NCBI GenBank assembly: GCA_945833885.1
Contig: CAMAFY010000001.1
Span: forward strand, 1-64,000
Reading direction: 5' to 3'
Source of the DNA: an uncultured Bacteroidales bacterium
GTDB lineage: Bacteria > Bacteroidota > Bacteroidia > Bacteroidales > Bacteroidaceae
DNA length: 64,000 nucleotides
The translations under genes were made by a program, and so were the position numbers. The stretch's first letter is position 1, and each line of letters begins with the position of its first letter. Below are positions 33,573 through 63,261 of the stretch, piece by piece. The notes below the pieces were generated by a model. The model worked only from the letters and a program-made list of their open reading frames with translations, was not told the DNA's origin and searched no databases.

Positions 33573-33761
33573 GTGTTGACCATTCTTCCGTGATGTCCGA
33601 CGTGGCTTTGTGAGTCTTTTGTCCTTTACTTCCGAATTGCCGGTATCCGTTACAATGATGGTCCGTGAATGCGCTGTAAAGTCCAATGTCTTGCCATAGG
33701 ATTCCGTGTCGGGAATCTGCTTTTGTGCCGTAAAGGACCGGCGTAAGGGTGGTGCGGGGAC

Positions 33762-33792
33762 AAAAAAATCCCCCTGCGGTGGAGCAGAGGGA
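33762..33792 (-). terminator. rho-independent terminator of the DUF3078 gene
   Basis: On the minus strand TCCCTCTGC pairs with GCAGGGGGA around TCCACC and is followed by TTTTTTT. It lies 10 bp past the stop codon at 33802. Confidence 0.9.
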
Positions 33793-33801
33793 ATGGATGA
33801 A

Positions 33802-35193
33802 TCAGAAACTGCAATCGAAGCCTATCGACAGATATTCGTTGAATTGGAAGTAAGTGTCATTGTCTTCGGTCTTCTTGACGCTGTTGTCGAAGCGGGGATA
33901 GAGGAAGATTTTTGTGCTCAAATACTTGTTCACTCTAAGGTTTATTGTGTTCTCCCACTCCATTTTCAGGTTCTTGTAGTCGTAGAAAATGTAGTATCTT
34001 GACCCCCAACTTATTGAATTCGTGAACTTCACTGTTGAGGTTACCGTGGCGGTAGAACCGAAAGTAGACTTGGAATGTTTGCCGTTTTCGATGCCGAACC
34101 GCCCCACAATGGCCGACCGGTCGCAGTATTTCACGCCGATGGCTATAGGAGAAATCGTAGCGTCGAAACTGGAAAGTTTCTTCTTACTTACGTGATAAGT
34201 CATACCAAGAGATATGACAGATTCGAAGGGAGACATGAAGTCTGAGGTGACAACATCCGAGTTTGCGTTAAACGTTTTGTAGAACTGTGTCCACGATTGT
34301 ACCATCAAAGTGTAGTTCCAGTTCCGGATGGCTTTAAGGCTAAACTTGTTGGTCAGACGCAAAAGGTCGTTGTTTGTCTTGAATTTATGGTAGGTATCAG
34401 ACTTGGTGGTCTGAAATCCCAGACGCGTTTCCAGGCAGTTGTAGACGGAAAACTTCTGCTTGTTGTCGTAATTTGCCTCGATTTTGAACTCTCCGAGCAT
34501 AGAAAGGTAGTCGTCACCTCCCTTGTACCAGTTGTCGGAGAAGTAGTATTGCATGAATTTTAGGGAGAAATTCCCTTTGACAGTCCAGAAGTTCGGTCGC
34601 CTGACGGTGATTTTGAAGTCTCCAGGCATGAATGTTTCCTGCACGTTGTTCCCCTTTTTCGCCACATCGTCGGGCGTTTCCTTGCCGTCGGTGCTGTGCA
34701 GTTTCTTTTCGTCTTTGTCCTTCGGGTCGGGTTCCGCGGGTGTTTGCCGCATGATGGGCGTCGTCAGGTCAAACCTTACGCTGGTGGGATGCTTGGCATA
34801 ACTGTAAAGCATCGCTTTTTGTATGGCATTTGTAGCACGCGGGGCAAGGGAAAAGGCATGCGGGTCGGGGGAGAATGGCTCGGAAGGCAGGGATGCCAGA
34901 CCGGCATAGAGGGGCGTGCTGTAAAGCGTGGCGCTGGAAAAGAGGGGGAAATAGTAGGGGTTGGTAAGCGTTTTCTCCACTCCCGTAAGGCGATGTTGGC
35001 GCTTGAGCATGATGATGCTGTCGAGCGATGTGGCATATCGCGCGGCAGTCATGGTGATGGTGTCGGCAAGCGTGCCCGCTTGTTTCTGATGAGGAGTCCA
35101 TGGTCCACCGGTTGTGCGTTGCCCTGCTGCCGGCAATGCCACCGGCAAGGTCAACGCTATCGTGATGAGAAAGAGGAGAATTCGTGGAAACAT
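33802..35193 (-). CDS. DUF3078 outer-membrane beta-barrel-like protein
   Basis: Predicted 463 residues with a signal peptide (MFPRILLFLITIALTLPVALPA). The second half alternates short amphipathic strands ending in aromatic residues (NFWTVKGNFSLKFMQYYF, FNEYLSIGFDCSF at the C-terminus), the pattern of an outer-membrane barrel with a terminal Phe. The family is annotated DUF3078 in Bacteroidota; function is unknown. A stretch of charged residues (EPDPKDKDEKKLHS) separates the halves. The start is set at the signal peptide; an in-frame ATG 32 codons upstream is less likely. mltG lies upstream on the same strand, 132 bp away. Confidence 0.8.
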   Translation of the reverse strand: MFPRILLFLITIALTLPVALPAAGQRTTGGPWTPHQKQAGTLADTITMTAARYATSLDSIIMLKRQHRLTGVEKTLTNPYYFPLFSSATLYSTPLYAGLASLPSEPFSPDPHAFSLAPRATNAIQKAMLYSYAKHPTSVRFDLTTPIMRQTPAEPDPKDKDEKKLHSTDGKETPDDVAKKGNNVQETFMPGDFKITVRRPNFWTVKGNFSLKFMQYYFSDNWYKGGDDYLSMLGEFKIEANYDNKQKFSVYNCLETRLGFQTTKSDTYHKFKTNNDLLRLTNKFSLKAIRNWNYTLMVQSWTQFYKTFNANSDVVTSDFMSPFESVISLGMTYHVSKKKLSSFDATISPIAIGVKYCDRSAIVGRFGIENGKHSKSTFGSTATVTSTVKFTNSISWGSRYYIFYDYKNLKMEWENTINLRVNKYLSTKIFLYPRFDNSVKKTEDNDTYFQFNEYLSIGFDCSF

Positions 35194-35325
35194 ACAGGAA
35201 AGATTGGAGAAAAAGATAGGTTCCGGAAAAGGCCTTCCTTTGGTGTTCGGAATGATCTTTTCGGATAATGTAGGGTGAAGGGTCGGCAATATGGGTTGCC
35301 GTGTGTCGGGTTATGTATGGAAGAA

Positions 35326-36618: not shown

Positions 36619-38301
36619 ATGATTACATACCAGTATGTTGACTACGTAGGCTTGATAGAAAAGTCTATCAAGACACGGTGGAACAATGCTTCCTTGACCG
36701 ATTTTCAAGGTCAGACATGCAATTATAAGGATGTTGCACGTAAGATAGAAAAGTTGCATATCCTCTTTGAAAATGCTGGAATAGAGCGCGGTGACCGCAT
36801 CGCAATATGCGGACGCAACAGCGCGCATTGGGCCATTTCCTTCCTCGCAACCCTGACTTATGGTTGCATAGTTGTGCCCATTCTCCATGAATTCAAGGCG
36901 GAACAGGTTCATAACATCGTCAATCACAGTGAGGCACGTCTGCTCTTTGCCGGAGATTATGTGTGGCCTACGCTGACACCTGACGAGATGCCTGCCATCG
37001 AAGGCGTCATTCATTTGCCGGATTTCGCGCTGAAAGTCAGCCGAAGTGAGCGTCTTACGGAAGCGCGTGCCCATCTTAACGAGTTCTTCGGACGGAAATA
37101 TCCCGAGCGTTTTACCGCAGACGATGTGCATTATGTCCCGCAACCGGATGGCGAAGCATTGAGCATGATCAACTATACCAGCGGTTCTACGGGCAACCCC
37201 AAGGGAGTAATGATTCCCTATCGTGCGCTTTGGAGCAACTATGAGTTTGCCATTGAGGTGCTCGGTGTCAAATGTAAGTCCGGCGATCGCGTGGTAAGCA
37301 TGTTGCCGATGGCGCACATGTATGGTATGGCATTTGAATTCCTCTTCGAATTCCTCCATGGAATCCACATCCATTTCCTCAATCGTCTGCCAAGTCCTAA
37401 GATCATTGTGCAGGCTTTCGCGGAAGTTAAGCCGTGTATCGTCATTGCTGTGCCTCTAATCATTGAGAAAATCATCAGAAAGAACGTACTTCCGAAGGTG
37501 CAGACCCATACAATGCAGATGTTGCTCCGCACTCCTTTGGTAAGAGGTAAGATACTTGAGAAGATACGTTTTGAGATTCAGAAGGTATTTGGCGGCCGTT
37601 TCTATGAGGTTATCATGGGTGGTGCCGGTCTGAATCCCGATGTTGAGAAGTTCCTTCGCAAGATTGGTTTCAATTACACCGTAGGTTATGGTTCGACAGA
37701 GTGCGCTCCCATCATGAGTTATGAGGATTGGCAGAGGTTCGCACAGGGAAGTTGTGGTAAGGTTGCTCCGCGAATGGAGGTGAAAATCAACTCGAAAGAC
37801 CCGCAACGAATTCCGGGAGAAATCCTCATGAGAGGCGCAAACGTCATGCTCGGGTACTACAAAAATCCTGAAGCCACCGCGGTAACCATCGATAAAGAGG
37901 GATGGTATCATAGCGGGGATATGGGTGTTATCGATGCAGAAGGCAACATCTACATCCGCGGACGCTGCAAAAACATGCTCCTCGGCAGCAATGGTCAGAA
38001 CATTTATCCCGAGGAAATTGAGGACAAACTCAATTCTCTGCTTTATGTCAGCGAGAGCATTATCATCCAAAAGGGCGACAAACTCTATGCGCTCATCTAT
38101 CCTGACTGGGAACATCTTGAGAAGGACGGGCTGACACACAAGGAAATCCGCGAGCAGATGGACAACAATATCCGTGAGTTGAATTTGCAGATCAACAAGT
38201 ACGAGCAGATAGTTGGATACCGTCTTTACAAGGAAGAGTTTGAAAAGACTCCGAAGAAGTCTATCAAACGTTACCTCTATGAAGATGCGGAAGTAAATTG
38301 A
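36619..38301 (+). CDS. AMP-binding acyl-CoA synthetase (long-chain type)
   Basis: A predicted 560-residue adenylate-forming enzyme that activates an acid, probably a fatty acid, to its CoA or ACP thioester. The ATP-binding P-loop is INYTSGSTGNPKGVMIPY (about residues 190-207). VGYGSTECAPIMSY and the A8-like WYHSGDMGVIDAEGNIYIRGRCKN are conserved. The C-terminal lid carries PKKSIKRYLY with the catalytic Lys. Length agrees with the family. The start MITYQYVD is chosen because the fold begins there; a longer frame opens at 36547 without support. It has its own promoter and terminator. Confidence 0.92.
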   Translation: MITYQYVDYVGLIEKSIKTRWNNASLTDFQGQTCNYKDVARKIEKLHILFENAGIERGDRIAICGRNSAHWAISFLATLTYGCIVVPILHEFKAEQVHNIVNHSEARLLFAGDYVWPTLTPDEMPAIEGVIHLPDFALKVSRSERLTEARAHLNEFFGRKYPERFTADDVHYVPQPDGEALSMINYTSGSTGNPKGVMIPYRALWSNYEFAIEVLGVKCKSGDRVVSMLPMAHMYGMAFEFLFEFLHGIHIHFLNRLPSPKIIVQAFAEVKPCIVIAVPLIIEKIIRKNVLPKVQTHTMQMLLRTPLVRGKILEKIRFEIQKVFGGRFYEVIMGGAGLNPDVEKFLRKIGFNYTVGYGSTECAPIMSYEDWQRFAQGSCGKVAPRMEVKINSKDPQRIPGEILMRGANVMLGYYKNPEATAVTIDKEGWYHSGDMGVIDAEGNIYIRGRCKNMLLGSNGQNIYPEEIEDKLNSLLYVSESIIIQKGDKLYALIYPDWEHLEKDGLTHKEIREQMDNNIRELNLQINKYEQIVGYRLYKEEFEKTPKKSIKRYLYEDAEVN

Positions 38302-38351
38302 TATCGCATCGTAGTGCAGTGCTTTCCCACATGCACCGTTGTTATAGAAAT

Positions 38352-38405
38352 GGCATCGCTTTGTCAAGGGGATAGGATTCCTTTGTCAAAGCGATGCCTT
38401 TTTCT
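38352..38405 (+). terminator. rho-independent terminator of the acyl-CoA synthetase gene
   Basis: GGCATCGCTTTG pairs perfectly with CAAAGCGATGCC, enclosing a smaller GG/CC-rich loop, and is followed by TTTTTCTTT. It lies 50 bp after the stop at 38301. Confidence 0.92.
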
Positions 38406-38540
38406 TTGTCTTACGACGGATAGTAACCGTTGTTTTGATGTTGTTTTCCACGCCTGTTGCGTGAGATGAATCGCCTTTTTGCTTTCATTTTGCCCAATTT
38501 CATACCTCTGAACATTGTCTTTTTCTTCCCGATTGTTCTC

Positions 38541-38584
38541 CCTTTCCCAGCAGACATCCTGTCCTTTCCCAGCAGGCATTCCCT
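38541..38584 (+). repeat. 22-bp direct repeat, two tandem units
   Basis: 38541-38562 and 38563-38584 share CCTTTCCCAGCAG(A/G)CATTC-like sequence. It is one more gap with a 22-bp period but an unrelated unit. Confidence 0.8.
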
Positions 38585-38762
38585 CCTTTTCTGTCTGACA
38601 GCCATGTTTCCTGTTTCGCACCGTGGCGTCCATGTCCTTTTTCTCCCGTTGTTTTCATGCTTTTCCGCAGTCCATATATGTCCGACAAGGGCGAAATACC
38701 ACGCAAAGTACCGCAAAAACGGACGTTTTTTCCGCATTTGAGCAAAAAAACGTAAAAAATGT

Positions 38763-38793
38763 TTGGTGAAAGATGCTGATTAACGTATATTTG
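38763..38793 (+). promoter_or_regulatory. candidate promoter for the aromatic amino acid operon
   Basis: TTG at 38763-38765, a 20-bp spacer and TATATTTG at 38786-38793 fit the consensus. It lies about 370 bp upstream of the leader peptide start at 39161, so a closer promoter that I cannot see may also be used. Confidence 0.5.
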
Positions 38794-39160
38794 CAACCGA
38801 AAACAGTGTCGGAATCGATTGAACGCTTCGGTGATTTCCTCCGATTATCTTTCACTTTTTCATAGCATTCGCGTCTATACCACCGGCGTTTCCACACAGT
38901 TCCCGATAGTGTTCCGCCATAAAACCAATGTACTCCTATATATAATATATGAGGCTTTGGCATGACATTGAAGGTTGTCGCACACAGCAATATGCGTGAC
39001 CTTGTGAGGTGGAAACGGAGCCAGCCGTCGGGAACTTTTGCAAGGCCGGTTCCGGAAAACGGACGAAAGTTCGGCAGCAGACAACCTCCGGATGTCCCTT
39101 CCGCTGTGGAAGGTTGCCGGAAAGCCGGAATGTTTCAATACAAAACTAAAGAAAAAGACC

Positions 39161-39226
39161 ATGACGTCGTTTTATTTTGCATACTCCTTTACTTACTTTG
39201 TCTTTCAGACAGAGCGGGGAATGTGA
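39161..39226 (+). CDS. Phe/Tyr-rich leader peptide of the aromatic operon
   Basis: A 21-codon reading frame, ATG at 39161 and TGA at 39224-39226. Residues 4-15 read FYFAYSFTYFVF: five Phe and three Tyr in twelve positions, a density expected only of an attenuator leader. The last codons (GAG CGG GGA) contain the half-site AGCGGGGA that can pair with the downstream terminator arm. It lies 188 bp before pheA, whose product starts phenylalanine synthesis, in the middle of an otherwise gene-free stretch. It could be read as the end of a longer frame opening at 39038, but the upstream part has no coding character. No experimental support is available to me. Confidence 0.8.
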   Translation: MTSFYFAYSFTYFVFQTERGM

Positions 39227-39310
39227 GTGCCAATGCGCGACAACAAAGAATAGACCTTTGGGTCAGATTTCCCGCTTTCGAATGTTTTCGATAGCGGGAT
39301 TTTAATTTTT
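39213..39310 (+). promoter_or_regulatory. transcription attenuator (antiterminator/terminator) before pheA
   Basis: Terminator: CCCGCT-T-TCGAA (39271-39282) pairs with TTCGA-T-AGCGGG (39287-39298) around a 4-nt loop, extended by one A-T pair, then a T-rich tail at 39300-39310. Antiterminator: AGCGGGGA (39213-39220, in the leader peptide codons 18-20) can pair with TTCCCGCT (39269-39276), all eight positions including one G-U. The two structures exclude each other. If a ribosome waits at the Phe/Tyr codons the first half-site stays free and the terminator cannot form; if it runs to the stop codon it covers that half-site and transcription should end. Confidence 0.8.
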
Positions 39311-39413
39311 CAGGAAAATGATTCGCTCTTTCCGGAATCTTCCCCAGGTCTTACCCCCTAAAAAACCAACATTTCAGACCAAAAATCCAAAAAGACTATA
39401 ACTGAACACGCCC

Positions 39414-40253
39414 ATGATAAAGGTTGCCATACAGGGTAATGCAGGATGTTTCCACGAGATTGCTGCCCACCGCTTTTATGAAAACGAGAAAATAGAAACG
39501 GTCTATTGTGATACTTTTGAGGATGTCTTCTCCGCCATGCAGGCGAATCCCGAAGAGTGTCTGGGGATGATTGCCATCGAAAACACCATTGCCGGTTCCC
39601 TGTTACACAATTATGAGTTGCTCAGAGACAACGGAAGTCACATCGTTGGCGAGTATAAATTGCATATAGAACACGCACTTCTCTGCCTTCCGGACGACGA
39701 TTGGGACACGCTGACTGAGGTGAATTCCCATCCGGTTGCCCTTATGCAGTGCCGCAACTATCTGTGGAAGCACCGTCAACTGCGGGTGGTGGAGGCCAAC
39801 GATACGGCAGGCTCCGCCGAAAACATCGCACGTGAGGGGCTGCGAGGCCATGCTTCCATCTGCCATGCCAGCGTAGCCAATCTCTACGGACTCAAAGTTT
39901 TGGAGAACAGCATCGAGGACAACAAGCACAACTATACCCGCTTCCTCCTCCTTGCCGACCTGTGCCGCAAGTCGGAAAACGACGTCCTTTGGGGCACTCC
40001 CGACAAAGCAAGTGTCGTTTTTGCCCTGCCTCATGAAGAAGGAAGCCTGGCAAAAGTGCTGGCGATTCTGAGTTTTTACAGGATAAACCTTACAAAAATC
40101 CAGTCGTTACCCATCATCGGCCGCGAATGGGAGTACCTTTTCTACATCGATTTGCAGTACGACAACTACGAAAGATACCTGCAAAGCATCGAGGCCGTCC
40201 GACCTTTGACGCGCGATTTGCGGATACTCGGAGAATACCGTGCGGCACAATAA
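39414..40253 (+). CDS. pheA: prephenate dehydratase with ACT domain
   Basis: A predicted 279-residue enzyme converting prephenate to phenylpyruvate, the committed step to phenylalanine. The N-terminal catalytic part has GNAGCFHEIAAHRFY, IENTIAGSLLHNYELL, a VNSHPVALMQC segment and the catalytic NYTRFLLL near residue 180. The C-terminal ACT domain (about 200-279) should bind phenylalanine for feedback control, but its usual ESRP motif reads QSLP (KIQSLPIIGREWEYLFYID) and the GAL motif reads GSL, so feedback strength may differ. First gene after the attenuator; the following three genes are in the same orientation. Confidence 0.95.
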   Translation: MIKVAIQGNAGCFHEIAAHRFYENEKIETVYCDTFEDVFSAMQANPEECLGMIAIENTIAGSLLHNYELLRDNGSHIVGEYKLHIEHALLCLPDDDWDTLTEVNSHPVALMQCRNYLWKHRQLRVVEANDTAGSAENIAREGLRGHASICHASVANLYGLKVLENSIEDNKHNYTRFLLLADLCRKSENDVLWGTPDKASVVFALPHEEGSLAKVLAILSFYRINLTKIQSLPIIGREWEYLFYIDLQYDNYERYLQSIEAVRPLTRDLRILGEYRAAQ

Positions 40254-40539: not shown

Positions 40540-41763
40540 ATGACAAATGTCAAGCCTGCTGACCGCCTTTCGTGCGTAAAGGAGTACTATTTCTCACGAA
40601 AACTTTCCGAGATTGCCCGTCTCCGCGAGGAGGGACACGATATTGTAAGCCTTGCCATCGGCAGTCCGGACCTGCCGCCACCGCCACAGGCCATTGAAAC
40701 CCTTTGCAAAGTGGCGCACGATGCCCATGCGCATGGTTACCAACCTACGAAAGGCACACCGGAACTCCGCCATGCCATGGCCCGTTTCTACAAGCGTCAT
40801 TTCGGCGTGGAACTGGATGCCGAGCGCGAAATCCTTCCGCTTATCGGCAGTAAGGAGGGCATCCTCCATACCACATTGGCGTTTGTCAATACCGGCGACA
40901 CGGTGCTTGTGCCCGACCCGGGCTATCCTACCTACACATCGCTTCCGACCCTTTTGGGAGCAAACGTGGTGCATTATCCGCTGAAAGCCGATGATGACTA
41001 CCAGCCGGACTTCGATTTCCTTGAAAAATTCGACACGTCGCGGGTAAGAATGCTGTGGATGAACTATCCGAACATGCCTACCGGTGCCAAGCCGCAGCGT
41101 GAAACCTACGAACGGATTGTGAGGTTCGCGCGTGAAAGGGGCATCGTCGTCGTCAACGACAACCCTTACAGTTTCATCCTTTCCGAGGGAGAGAAACTCA
41201 GCATCATGCAGGTTGAAGGGGCAAAGGATTGTTGTATTGAACTCAATTCCATGTCGAAAAGCCACAATATGCCGGGCTGGCGTGTGGGAATGCTTGTAGG
41301 AAATGCCGAATTTGTCGGATGGGCGCTGAAAGTGAAGAGCAATATCGACTCCGGAACATTCAGAGGTTTGCAGTTGGCTGCGGCATCCGCGATAGACGTT
41401 GCCGATGATTGGCATCGCGAATATAATGTGGAAGTGTATGCCCGTCGCCGTGTTTTGGGCGAGGCTGTCCTGAAAACGCTTGGCGTTGAGGCGGACTTCA
41501 GCAAGCAGACAGGTATGTTCCTGTGGGCGCATATCCCCGAAAACCATCCCCTTTTGCCGGCTTTGGGGGCAGCAACTGCCGAAAGCACCCTTTCAGAACG
41601 TTTTGCCGACTACGTATTGAAGCAGGTGGAGGTTTTCATTACACCGGGTTTCATCTTCGGCAAGGGCGGCGACCATTGCGTCAGACTTTCGCTCTGCGCG
41701 TCGGAAGAACGCCTTACGGAAGCCCTGAAGCGCGTAAAGGCGATGATGACGACGCTGGTCTGA
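40540..41763 (+). CDS. class I/II aminotransferase, probably aromatic
   Basis: A predicted 407-residue PLP enzyme, fold type I. Substrate loop and cofactor motifs are visible: SLAIGSPDLPPPPQAIETL near the start, DPGYPTYTSLP, MNYPNMPTGA, VNDNPYSFILSEG and the PLP lysine in LNSMSKSHNMPGWRVGMLVG. A final RLSLCASEERL supplies the carboxylate-binding Arg. By sequence it resembles LL-diaminopimelate/aspartate-type enzymes, but its place between pheA and the DAHP synthase suggests it makes phenylalanine and tyrosine from the keto acids. Gaps of 286 bp before and 435 bp after are large for an operon. Confidence 0.9.
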   Translation: MTNVKPADRLSCVKEYYFSRKLSEIARLREEGHDIVSLAIGSPDLPPPPQAIETLCKVAHDAHAHGYQPTKGTPELRHAMARFYKRHFGVELDAEREILPLIGSKEGILHTTLAFVNTGDTVLVPDPGYPTYTSLPTLLGANVVHYPLKADDDYQPDFDFLEKFDTSRVRMLWMNYPNMPTGAKPQRETYERIVRFARERGIVVVNDNPYSFILSEGEKLSIMQVEGAKDCCIELNSMSKSHNMPGWRVGMLVGNAEFVGWALKVKSNIDSGTFRGLQLAAASAIDVADDWHREYNVEVYARRRVLGEAVLKTLGVEADFSKQTGMFLWAHIPENHPLLPALGAATAESTLSERFADYVLKQVEVFITPGFIFGKGGDHCVRLSLCASEERLTEALKRVKAMMTTLV

Positions 41764-42198: not shown

Positions 42199-43269
42199 AT
42201 GGAACTCGAACTTCAACCCCTCAACCTTCCGGGTATTGACGCCCAGCGTCGCCCCCTCGTCATTGCTGGTCCATGTTCTGCGGAAACCGAAGAGCAAGTT
42301 ATGACCACAGCCTTGCAGTTAGCCTCAAACGGCATTCGTATCATGCGTGCCGGAATCTGGAAACCCCGCACAAAACCTGGCGGTTTCGAAGGTGTCGGCG
42401 AGAAAGGTCTCCCGTGGTTGCAGCGCGTACACGACGAGTGTGGCCTCCTTACTGCCACGGAAGTGGCGAACGCCCACCATGTTCAAGCGGCCCTCGAACA
42501 CGGCATTGACATCCTTTGGATCGGTGCCCGCACCTCGGCAAACCCCTTTGCCATGCAGGAAATTGCCGATGCCCTTGAGGGACACGACGTGCCCGTGCTG
42601 GTGAAGAATCCCGTAAATCCCGACCTGGAACTTTGGATTGGCGCCCTCCAACGTCTGAACAATGCCGGCATAAAACGCCTGGCAGCCGTTCATCGTGGCT
42701 TCTCTTCCTACGACAAACGCATCTATCGCAATCCTCCCATGTGGCACATTCCCATTGAACTGCGCCGCCGCATCCCCGATCTTCCCATGATTGGCGACCC
42801 CAGTCACATTGGTGGCAGCAGGGAACTCGTGGCCCCTCTCTGCCAGCAGGCCATGGATTTGGGTTTCGACGGCCTGCTTATTGAAAGCCATTGCCAGCCC
42901 GACAATGCCTGGAGCGATGCCAAACAGCAGATTACACCCGATGTCCTCGAATTCATCCTCGAAAAACTGACCATTCGAAACCAGATGACGACGACAGAAG
43001 GATTGGAGACCTTGCGCCGCCAGATTGATGAGGTGGACAACCAATTGCTCGAACTTTTGGCAACGCGAATGCGCATCAGCCGTGAGATAGGTACGTATAA
43101 GAAGCAGAACAACATGACCGTCGTGCAGACCATGCGTTATAGCGAAATCCTCGAAAAGCGTGGGGCGCAGGGTACGTTGAACGGTATGAGCAACAGTTTC
43201 ATCCGTGACATTTTTGAGCATATCCATGAGGAGTCTGTAGCACAGCAGATAGAAATCATGAACAAATGA
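42199..43269 (+). CDS. bifunctional DAHP synthase / chorismate mutase
   Basis: Predicted 356 residues. The N-terminal ~260 residues are a DAHP synthase of the short I-beta (KDO8P-synthase-like) type with AGPCSAETEEQV, RAGIWKPRTKPGGFEGVGE, LVKNPVNPDLELWIGAL and PMIGDPSHIGGSR, which condenses PEP and erythrose-4-phosphate in the first shikimate step. The C-terminal ~90 residues are an AroQ chorismate mutase (TLRRQIDEVDNQLLELLATR, MRISREIGTYKK). The fusion is common in Bacteroidota and lets the mutase part serve as an allosteric site for prephenate control. Third gene of the aromatic cluster. Confidence 0.95.
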   Translation: MELELQPLNLPGIDAQRRPLVIAGPCSAETEEQVMTTALQLASNGIRIMRAGIWKPRTKPGGFEGVGEKGLPWLQRVHDECGLLTATEVANAHHVQAALEHGIDILWIGARTSANPFAMQEIADALEGHDVPVLVKNPVNPDLELWIGALQRLNNAGIKRLAAVHRGFSSYDKRIYRNPPMWHIPIELRRRIPDLPMIGDPSHIGGSRELVAPLCQQAMDLGFDGLLIESHCQPDNAWSDAKQQITPDVLEFILEKLTIRNQMTTTEGLETLRRQIDEVDNQLLELLATRMRISREIGTYKKQNNMTVVQTMRYSEILEKRGAQGTLNGMSNSFIRDIFEHIHEESVAQQIEIMNK

Positions 43270-43574
43270 CACTGACTTTCCGGCAAAGGAGCGAGGGCTT
43301 GATGTTTTTTTAGGGCCTTCCTCGCAGGAAAGTCTGTCATCGCATATACCGCAAGGCGGAACCCCTTCCCGGCATCACCGCACATCCTTTCTTGACAGAG
43401 GGAATTTTGTGGGTGAAAAGGCGATGCTTTGACGTAAGGCACCGCAGGGATTTGTAGCAAGGCATTCTGGATATTATGGTAAAGTGTTAAGGATTATATG
43501 GCAATACTTTTCATGTGTATATCGGAAAATGCCGTTTCCGCCAGCAAAACCACAACAATAACAACCTCGAAGTT
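43270..43574. other. 305-bp gap within the aromatic cluster
   Basis: No gene is supported. An imperfect hairpin can be drawn at 43291-43325 (GCGAGG...CCTCGC) with T residues only in its loop. No promoter matching the -33/-7 consensus is obvious. Confidence 0.5.
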
Positions 43575-44351
43575 ATGAAGATACTTATCCTTGGCGCCGG
43601 CAAGATGGGAGCCTTCTTTGTCGATCTGCTGAGTTTCGACCACGAAACGGCCGTGATAGACATCGATCCGCGCCGTTTGCGCTTCATGTATAATACGCAA
43701 CGTTTCACATCTTACGATGAAATTGACGCTTTCGCACCCGAACTTGTCATCAATGCTGTGACGTTGAAGGCGACCAAGCAGATATTTTTGGAGGTCATCC
43801 CCCATCTTCCGAAGGACTGTATTCTTGCAGACATCGCGTCCGTGAAGACCGGATTGCAGGAGTTCTACGCCACAACAGGTATGCGTTACGTGTCGACACA
43901 CCCGATGTTCGGCCCCACATTCGCGAATCTTGGGAAACTTGCCGACGAGAATGCCATCATCATCACCGAGGGCGATTATATGGGACGCCTGTTCTTCCGT
44001 GACCTTTATTCCCGTCTTGGTCTCCACATTCACGAATGTTCCTTTGACGAGCACGATGAAACGATGGCGTATTCATTGAGCATCCCCTTCGTCAGCACGT
44101 TTGTCTTTTCGGCCGTCATGAGACGTCCCGACGCTCCGGGTACGACCTTCAAGCGTCATCTTGCAATAGCCAAAGGAGTGTTGGGTGAGGATGAGGGCTT
44201 GTTGAGGGAGATACTTTTCAATCCCCGGACGGCAGGACAGGTGGCAAACGTCGGAGAGCGTTTGCGAGAACTTGCTGACATCATCGAGCGGCGTGACGAG
44301 AAAGCGCTTGCGGATTTCCTGCAGGACATACGTCAAAGGGTGTTGGGATAA
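43575..44351 (+). CDS. tyrA: prephenate dehydrogenase
   Basis: A predicted 258-residue NAD(P)-dependent enzyme giving 4-hydroxyphenylpyruvate, the tyrosine branch. The Rossmann start is ILGAGKMGAFF. The active-site region is VSTHPMFGPTFANLGKLADENAI with the conserved H-P-M-F-G-P, and MAYSLSIPFVSTFVF lies in the dimer helix. There is no ACT domain, so feedback control is likely elsewhere, for instance at the DAHP synthase or the operon attenuator. The start MKILILGAG is set by the nucleotide-binding motif; an in-frame ATG 20 codons earlier adds an unlikely leader. Confidence 0.93.
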   Translation: MKILILGAGKMGAFFVDLLSFDHETAVIDIDPRRLRFMYNTQRFTSYDEIDAFAPELVINAVTLKATKQIFLEVIPHLPKDCILADIASVKTGLQEFYATTGMRYVSTHPMFGPTFANLGKLADENAIIITEGDYMGRLFFRDLYSRLGLHIHECSFDEHDETMAYSLSIPFVSTFVFSAVMRRPDAPGTTFKRHLAIAKGVLGEDEGLLREILFNPRTAGQVANVGERLRELADIIERRDEKALADFLQDIRQRVLG

Positions 44352-62853: not shown

Positions 62854-63253
62854 GGGCCTGACTGGATTTGACAGCGGGACGAGATGGTATGTAAGCATGC
62901 GGTGAGCCTGCAGGTGGTCACCTTAATCACGGCCTGTGACAATTTATCTGGCGAAAATTCTTACGCTCTCGCTGCCTAATCGAAGTACAGTAGATTGGCT
63001 TTATTCCAGCGCAAGGCGCAGGAACGAGACATCACCCAAGAGCCGTTTTCCCCGAGGCTTCTTGACCAGTGTGGTGCAGCATATCGGAGATAGTCGGCGG
63101 TAGCCTCGTACCGTGGATGAAGTTTTAGAGGATACGGCATCGTTTAAGGCTGTTCCCGCCCCACACCTTGCCCGACAATCCAATTGGGAAATAAGCATGT
63201 AGAAAGCATATGATTTCCCCGTTTGGACGAGGGTTCAATCCCCTCCAGGTCCA
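62854..63253 (+). ncRNA. ssrA: tmRNA (ssrA)
   Basis: About 400 nt. The 5' GGGCCTG pairs with 3' CAGGTCC (7 bp, one G-U) to form the acceptor stem. The T arm is GAGGG-TTCAATC-CCCTC near 63229-63245. The tag reading frame GGC GAA AAT TCT TAC GCT CTC GCT GCC TAA encodes GENSYALAA, close to tags known in this order (GENNYALAA, GETNYALAA). A CCA end is not encoded. tmRNA rescues ribosomes stalled on broken mRNA and tags their products for proteolysis. Confidence 0.97.
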
Positions 63254-63261
63254 CAAACATT

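Follow-up and report, generated by a model that had tools for sequence, protein, structure and literature searches.

Gene cluster and leader region

The window, a stretch of 64,000 nucleotides of contig CAMAFY010000001.1 from an uncultured Bacteroidales bacterium, carries an aromatic amino acid cluster of four genes on the plus strand. The first gene, pheA (39414–40253; Pfam PDT prephenate dehydratase, E = 1.3e-50), is followed by a class I/II aminotransferase (40540–41763; Pfam Aminotran_1_2), a DAHP synthase–chorismate mutase (aroF-CM, 42199–43269; Pfam DAHP_synth_1 and CM_2) and a tyrA-type prephenate dehydrogenase with an uncertain start codon (43515–44351; Pfam PDH_N, E = 1.3e-9). Upstream, approximately 860 bases (38302–39160) separate the gene of an AMP-binding enzyme from the leader described below, and the two minus-strand open reading frames (ORFs) within this interval matched no Pfam family. 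The interval also contains an inverted repeat of 26 nt (38348–38402, 85% complementary, arms 3 nt apart) located 3' of the gene ending at 38301, of which it is possibly the terminator. Elsewhere in the window, a terminator-like hairpin with a U-run was observed on the minus strand (33760–33794) right after the minus-strand ORF at 33802–35289, and a tmRNA gene was located at 62854–63256 (Rfam RF00023, 112.4 bits).

The plus-strand region upstream of pheA, at 39161–39310, consists of a leader ORF and a U-tailed hairpin. The ORF (39161–39226, with the ATG at 39161 and the TGA at 39224–39226) has 21 codons and encodes MTSFYFAYSFTYFVFQTERGM; an aromatic leader was kept in relatives. Its codons 4–15 (39170–39205) comprise five Phe and three Tyr codons (8 of 12 aromatic), with a Y-F-Y-F core that was conserved among 145 distinct leaders. 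The intrinsic terminator at 39270–39310 reads TCCCGCTTTCGAA-TGTT-TTCGATAGCGGGA-TTTTAATTTTT, in which folding and covariation delimited the hairpin formed by regions 3 and 4 (39270–39299) and the last element is the U-tract (39300–39310). Region 2 (GAGCGGGGAAT, 39212–39222) is situated within the last leader codons as the 5' arm of an antiterminator, and pairs with region 3 (ATTTCCCGCTT, 39267–39277), which is common to antiterminator and terminator; both regions were delimited by sequence and covariation. In the minimum free energy fold, region 1 (39177–39187) pairs with 39216–39226, forming a 1:2 stem that is incompatible with the antiterminator.

A sequence-only reading of this DNA had described the 21-codon leader with eight aromatic residues in positions 4–15, the U-tailed terminator at 39270–39310 and a downstream cluster of pheA, aminotransferase, DAHP synthase-mutase and tyrA; the first two descriptions were exact, and the third agreed with the ORFs and Pfam assignments. 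It had also proposed that the end of the leader is complementary to the 5' arm of the terminator and that the two pairings exclude each other. The complementarity was present and exclusive, although longer than claimed, with 11 pairs (39212–39222 with 39267–39277) including two G-U.

In the window copy, region 2 begins 12 nt past the codon of Phe13, the end of a Tyr12-Phe13 pair. Stalled ribosomes were simulated by folding the free RNA, with 10 nt past the A-site codon assumed to be covered. With a ribosome at Phe13 the free RNA folded into the antiterminator, and with a ribosome at the stop codon it folded into the terminator. At the extra Phe15 part of region 2 was covered and the terminator remained, so a stall at this last aromatic codon would favour the terminator, because Phe15 is too near to region 2.

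Ribosome-mediated attenuation is a classical mechanism, and the E. coli pheA attenuator follows a scheme of antiterminator versus terminator. The window element contains the corresponding parts: a short leader ORF rich in codons for the products of the pathway, an intrinsic terminator that is predicted, from sequence and folding, to separate this ORF from the first gene, and an antiterminator that, judging from anatomy and folding, would be freed by a stalled ribosome and has an arm in common with the terminator. Very probably, in our view, the element regulates pheA, the aminotransferase, aroF-CM and tyrA by ribosome-mediated transcription attenuation, with charged tRNA-Phe and tRNA-Tyr as the signals. 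We infer that the leader is translated, that ribosomes stall on it, that transcription terminates and that the cluster responds. Transcription of the leader by RNA polymerase would proceed together with its translation by a ribosome. When Phe or Tyr is scarce, the ribosome would halt on the aromatic codons, no farther than Phe13, and leave region 2 free, so that regions 2 and 3 could pair, no terminator would form and the cluster would be transcribed. With ample Phe and Tyr, the ribosome would reach the stop codon and cover region 2, regions 3 and 4 would pair and transcription would stop near 39303–39310. An untranslated leader can fold both the 1:2 stem and the terminator, which would likewise lead to termination.

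Specificity of the element

The fold of 39140–39320 was more stable than that of shuffled sequences (z = −3.83; 0 of 200 shuffles were equally stable), and an ATG-initiated ORF with eight aromatic residues in 12 was found in none of 3000 mononucleotide shuffles of 39111–39413. A covariance model was built from 46 relatives, with the window and the close relative L002 left out. Its top match was 39161–39310, whether the window was searched (37.7 bits, E = 1.5e-6) or the entire genome (E = 7.5e-5). The score of 37.7 bits alone is not decisive, since chance or terminator-only matches to another model (R1) went up to 38.3 bits. Even with itself included in the model, the window copy scored 57.5 bits, and 70 of the 77 matching loci of a separate collection of named loci scored higher.

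A second genomic copy was considered and rejected: the next matches to model R2 in the genome were partial, or full-length at E-values of 0.45 and 0.75. Five of these six loci, all except L357, were scanned for an aromatic leader and showed none. At the thresholds used, the window contained no further amino-acid-rich leader ORF with a terminator.

Conservation in the family, order and phylum

A gene for pheA was present in 50 of 58 genus genomes and 263 of 301 family genomes. From these, 108 family loci were compiled, comprising the genus and the best-scoring or hand-spread places of the family, with the window included, and hence not a random draw. In 99 of the 108 loci, a parser detected a terminator upstream of pheA, preceded by an aromatic leader that starts with ATG. 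Three of the 99 had low terminator scores (L046, L080 and L090); the model scored two of these at 67.5 bits (L046) and 100.3 bits (L090). Of the nine loci missed by the parser, four were recovered by the covariance model (L008, L016, L049 and L092), giving a total of 103 of 108, and the element was unrecognisable in the remaining five (L003, L013, L017, L045 and L051). Among the named loci, which overlap in species with the other genomes surveyed, 77 of 80 matched the model, one of them (L231) partially.

Across the order and phylum, model R1 at an E-value of 0.001 matched 80 of 247 order genomes, 77 of them at full length, and 54 of 296 phylum genomes, 40 of them at full length, with full-length matches extending to other classes of the phylum; the matches that were not full-length were partial and mostly covered the terminator only. 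When the 58 best order and phylum loci were inspected, the window being one of them, the nearest detected downstream cluster gene was pheA, the aminotransferase or aroF-CM in 57, and the remaining locus ran off its contig. Two of the 57 had a distant gene (367 nt in L158 and 1051 nt in L165). A closer search of two families yielded 36 loci, 11 of which were near no cluster gene; all 11 scored at most 38.3 bits, and ORFs were listed for two of them (L293 and L298).

The order was also sampled with nearly one genome per family, and pheA was found in 48 of these 109 genomes. Leaving out the window and a fragment in genome G368, 46 of the 48 pheA regions were analysed, and the element was present in 41 (38 by the parser and three, L320, L337 and L344, by the model). 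Of the five regions without it, two were truncated where the contig ends (L316 in genome G450 and L339 in G343), and in both genomes the model had a match at the edge of another contig. The other three (L315, L319 and L343) were plain misses.

Pairing and covariation

Covariation was assessed in an alignment (A1) of 51 out of 74 sequences, selected by a region 2 score of at least 19, a terminator score of at least 27, a distinct C-terminus and length. The pairing counts from A1 are biased upward because of this pre-filtering, and the shuffles used for comparison ignore the relatedness of the sequences. In the 2:3 antiterminator, 92.1% of the alignment cells were standard-paired and 24 double-sided changes were found, compared with a mean of 9.7 in shuffled alignments (reached in 0 of 500). 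The 3:4 terminator had 93.7% standard pairs and 28 double-sided changes (shuffled mean 10.6; reached in 0 of 500). When the pairings were shifted by 1–3 columns, at most 56.5% standard pairs were obtained. Two other measures in A1 were less distinctive: the number of further pair types in the 2:3 stem did not exceed that in the shuffles (8 versus 8.1), and the number of double-changed pairs in the 3:4 stem was barely above them (31 of 500 reached it). The commonest covarying change was GAAGCGGGA/TCCCGCTTC versus GAGCGGGA/TCCCGCTC, which exchanges a Lys and a Glu codon where the leader spans region 2; the amino acid therefore yields to the pairing.

In an unfiltered comparison of the 145 distinct leaders, the pairing of region 2 with the region 3 of the same leader surpassed the average of swapped partners in 73 of 94 leaders from the family and 46 of 51 from outside it. 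The start of the aromatic run (region 1) pairs in the relatives with a stretch overlapping the end of region 2, at an average of −13.3 kcal/mol for native and −10.3 kcal/mol for swapped partners. Of 92 leaders, 76 had a native 1:2 duplex more favourable than the mean of the swapped duplexes (median rank 0.15), as did 65 in an ungapped test, in which the window copy was weak (13.0 versus a mean of 18.1 in the relatives). The attenuators of the trp and phe operons follow a scheme of 1:2, 2:3 and 3:4 pairing, and the pairings in the relatives correspond to this scheme, the 1:2 stem being the least certain. The distance from the last aromatic codon to the start of region 2 was 11–12 nt in 64 of the 145 leaders and 9–13 nt in 112.

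The sequence-only reading had named missing conservation of the peptide or of both stems in close relatives as grounds for rejecting its proposal. The proposal withstood this test: the leader, both exclusive pairings and the location before pheA proved to be conserved, and compensatory changes were seen. A chance terminator next to a random ORF was ruled out by this conservation and covariation.

Promoter and translation start

Of the 145 relatives, 128 had the motif TAnnTT(T/C/G)G in the 120 nt preceding the leader ATG, versus 15.8 expected by chance. In 106 of the 145 the box lay 24–48 nt upstream, and its commonest form was TACTTTTG; in most relatives the distance was approximately 28 nt. 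A TTG accompanied the box, most often 22–23 nt farther upstream, and we take the combination to be a Bacteroidota-type promoter. The start context of the 145 leaders was A-rich, and three Shine-Dalgarno words occurred below chance level (1 of 145 versus 8.6 expected).

No TAnnTT(T/C/G)G box precedes the leader of the window copy, a point that the sequence-only reading had missed. Where the box would be expected by distance, the 8-mer AATGTTTC (39129) differs from it by two mismatches. Displacement of the promoter by a repeated insertion was ruled out: the 206 bases at 38940–39145 are single-copy in the genome, the other 27 genome matches to them were of chance length (at most 31 bases), and the repeats near the leader comprised only two-copy repeats of 12–22 nt and three inverted pairs. 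The missing box, together with the low model scores of the window copy and the near relative L003 without a recognisable element, could mean that the family is real but that this copy is decaying or disused, its promoter lost and the cluster transcribed otherwise. The leader, regions 2 and 3 and the terminator are nevertheless all intact and mutually complementary, which counts against decay, since a dead element should have lost one of these parts. We regard a decaying copy as unlikely and prefer a functional attenuator.

Codon content of the leaders

When the 145 leaders were aligned on their last aromatic residue, the final four positions were Y, F, Y and F in 120, 111, 120 and 129 of them, respectively. 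At several positions Phe and Tyr were interchanged, with 57 Tyr and 56 Phe at position −5 and 92 Phe and 35 Tyr at position −4. The residues past the aromatic core were variable.

The proportion of Phe and Tyr followed the genes downstream. We defined a solitary pheA as one whose downstream sequence, over approximately 3 kb, gave no tblastn match to any of the other five window proteins. Four such loci, from four families, had a leader (L328, L329, L347 and L348), and their ORF lists concurred with the definition. Their densest 12 residues held 28 Phe and a single Tyr in total (for example, MITINNSFFFFFFRSDPEKGL), whereas the 40 leaders at 34 loci with a clustered pheA held 204 Phe and 149 Tyr, with Tyr in every one (Fisher p = 3e-4, each tandem unit counted separately). 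Entire leaders gave 28 Phe and 3 Tyr versus 223 and 160, and two of the three Tyr, both in L348, were located past the core. A fifth solitary pheA locus (L319) had no leader. Two of the genomes with a solitary pheA carried a second, Tyr-containing leader elsewhere: MNNTFGYYAFYYYFFYNN before tyrA/aroF-CM in G352 and MIKNISVFAYFYYYFYFSKK before the aminotransferase/aroF-CM in G362. In the genus of G362, in which pheA is located away from the cluster (L302–L309), six of eight loci had no attenuator and two had a Phe-only core.

The codon content thus tracks the downstream gene, as control by tRNA charging predicts and nascent-peptide arrest does not. Such an arrest, in which the aromatic peptide itself would stall the ribosome on a ligand, would be in keeping with the well-conserved YFYF core, but the interchange of Phe and Tyr at several positions and the variable residues past the core point away from it as well, and we consider it quite improbable. 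With tRNA charging as the preferred signal, the Phe-only leaders at solitary pheA genes can be regarded as natural mutants, a natural experiment that supports the codon-sensing rule. The proposal of the sequence-only reading that the mixed leader senses both Phe and Tyr is supported, but not proven, by the YFYF core and by the nearly Phe-only leaders at solitary pheA genes.

Rfam searches and RNA-based alternatives

Searches with the Rfam 15 models gave no family at the gathering threshold in 38900–39500; four weak matches appeared when the limit was raised to an E-value of 10, all to unrelated RNAs. Neither the family RF01859, which we take to be the Rfam Phe leader, nor the T-box riboswitch was among the matches at the gathering threshold or up to an E-value of 10. 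The Bacteroid-trp RNA (RF01692) matched nowhere in the window or the rest of the genome; of 14 control genomes, that of Bacteroides ihuae matched. Known Rfam families were thereby ruled out as the identity of the element.

A working terminator would be expected to yield an RNA of approximately 150–180 nt, and this terminated leader might also, or mainly, act in trans as a small RNA. In the loci inspected, the element is placed in cis before one and the same pathway, which makes the cis role primary, and we assign the trans-acting role a very low probability. Lower still is that of a direct ligand riboswitch or a tRNA-binding T-box with an incidental ORF, for although a structured 5' leader upstream of a biosynthetic operon is reminiscent of both, no Rfam family reached threshold, the conserved feature is the codon composition, and region 2 is situated within or just past the ORF.

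Tandem units of the proposed attenuator

Two units in series were found before pheA in 8 of the 46 order loci (L310, L327, L331, L336, L338, L346, L349 and L350), six of them detected by the parser and two by the model. Six additional tandem loci were found (L168–L171, L182 and L241), among which the tandem of L182 precedes the aminotransferase. Both units could be parsed in 13 of the 14 tandem loci, the exception being L350. In 23 of the 26 parsed units, region 2 preferred its own region 3 over that of the neighbour; the exceptions were the second units of L170, L182 and L336. Both units of a tandem were rich in Phe and Tyr codons, and the window has a single unit. A tandem has the appearance of two distinct switches answering to one signal. 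The tandem units are the least expected part of our results and raise the question of why one signal should pass two gates.

Comparison with known systems

In the open literature searched, supplements aside, we found no experimental proof of the element and no description of its spread in the phylum, of the re-tuning of its codons or of the tandem forms. Candidates in Bacteroidetes/Chlorobi are reportedly mentioned by Vitreschak in 2004. The comparisons below refer to excerpts of the cited papers.

The closest description was found in the same phylum. For Flavobacterium psychrophilum and the Flavobacteriaceae, clues to leader-peptide attenuation before amino acid operons were reported, and a 5' element of pheA was listed as conserved and without an Rfam hit (PMC9723704). 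Its likeness to the window element lies in description, phylum and gene (PMC9723704). The sequence-only reading had cautioned that earlier computational descriptions may exist, and the excerpt of this source bears the caution out. Given these reports for Flavobacterium of a 5' element at pheA and of attenuation by leader peptides, the element belongs to an already known kind (PMC9723704). In B. thetaiotaomicron, leader-like ORFs were noted within long 5' untranslated regions (PMC7366714). The Bacteroid-trp RNA (RF01692) is listed as a cis-regulatory motif of Bacteroidetes (PMC2864571); linked to trp by its name, it is cis-regulatory, as the window element would be, yet, as stated above, matches neither the window nor its genome.

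Outside the phylum, the pheA leader of E. coli (pheL) is described as sensing tRNA-Phe by trp-type attenuation (PMC11802643). The window element resembles it in having a leader peptide with control codons before pheA and in its proposed regulation by charged tRNA, and differs, as far as the excerpt describes pheL, in its mixture of Phe and Tyr codons and in a region 2 that lies in or just past the last codons (PMC11802643). It further differs from pheL, within the same limits, in the missing Shine-Dalgarno words and in the lack of an Rfam match. The aroR leader of C. glutamicum, located before aroF and containing Phe-Tyr-Phe, was reported to respond to Phe and not to Tyr (PMC4046766, PMC11802643). 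Both systems have Phe-Tyr-Phe in a leader peptide upstream of an operon with a DAHP synthase; unlike the one Phe-Tyr-Phe motif described for aroR, the leaders studied here have a long aromatic run and belong to another phylum (PMC4046766). Leader ORFs and attenuators in series are known from the mgtCBR operon of Salmonella, where tandem units sense two different signals (PMC3641672). The eight order loci with two units share this arrangement; in contrast to the two signals of mgtCBR, both of their units are rich in Phe and Tyr (PMC3641672).

Taken as a group, these elements may constitute an RNA family found throughout the Bacteroidota and absent from Rfam, and we lean towards this broader reading with moderate confidence. 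Its members would be bivalent Phe/Tyr attenuators that start translation without a Shine-Dalgarno sequence, with codons re-tuned to Phe alone once pheA leaves the cluster. In several families the element would be doubled, each unit having a private antiterminator/terminator code for the same signal, so that read-through would pass two gates. Tight coupling of transcription and translation would be expected in Bacteroidota, because such leaders need the ribosome and the polymerase to move closely together. For a major gut phylum, this provides a concrete candidate switch of its Phe/Tyr pathway, and the element offers a ready reporter for transcription–translation coupling in organisms in which Shine-Dalgarno initiation is rare.

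A similar arrangement was observed before another biosynthetic gene. At 1640–1776 of locus L329, upstream of ilvD (Pfam), a leader-like ORF (MRHMLTSIIFIILTCHGKK) is followed by a GC-rich, U-tailed hairpin, and the two may form a branched-chain attenuator built in the same way.
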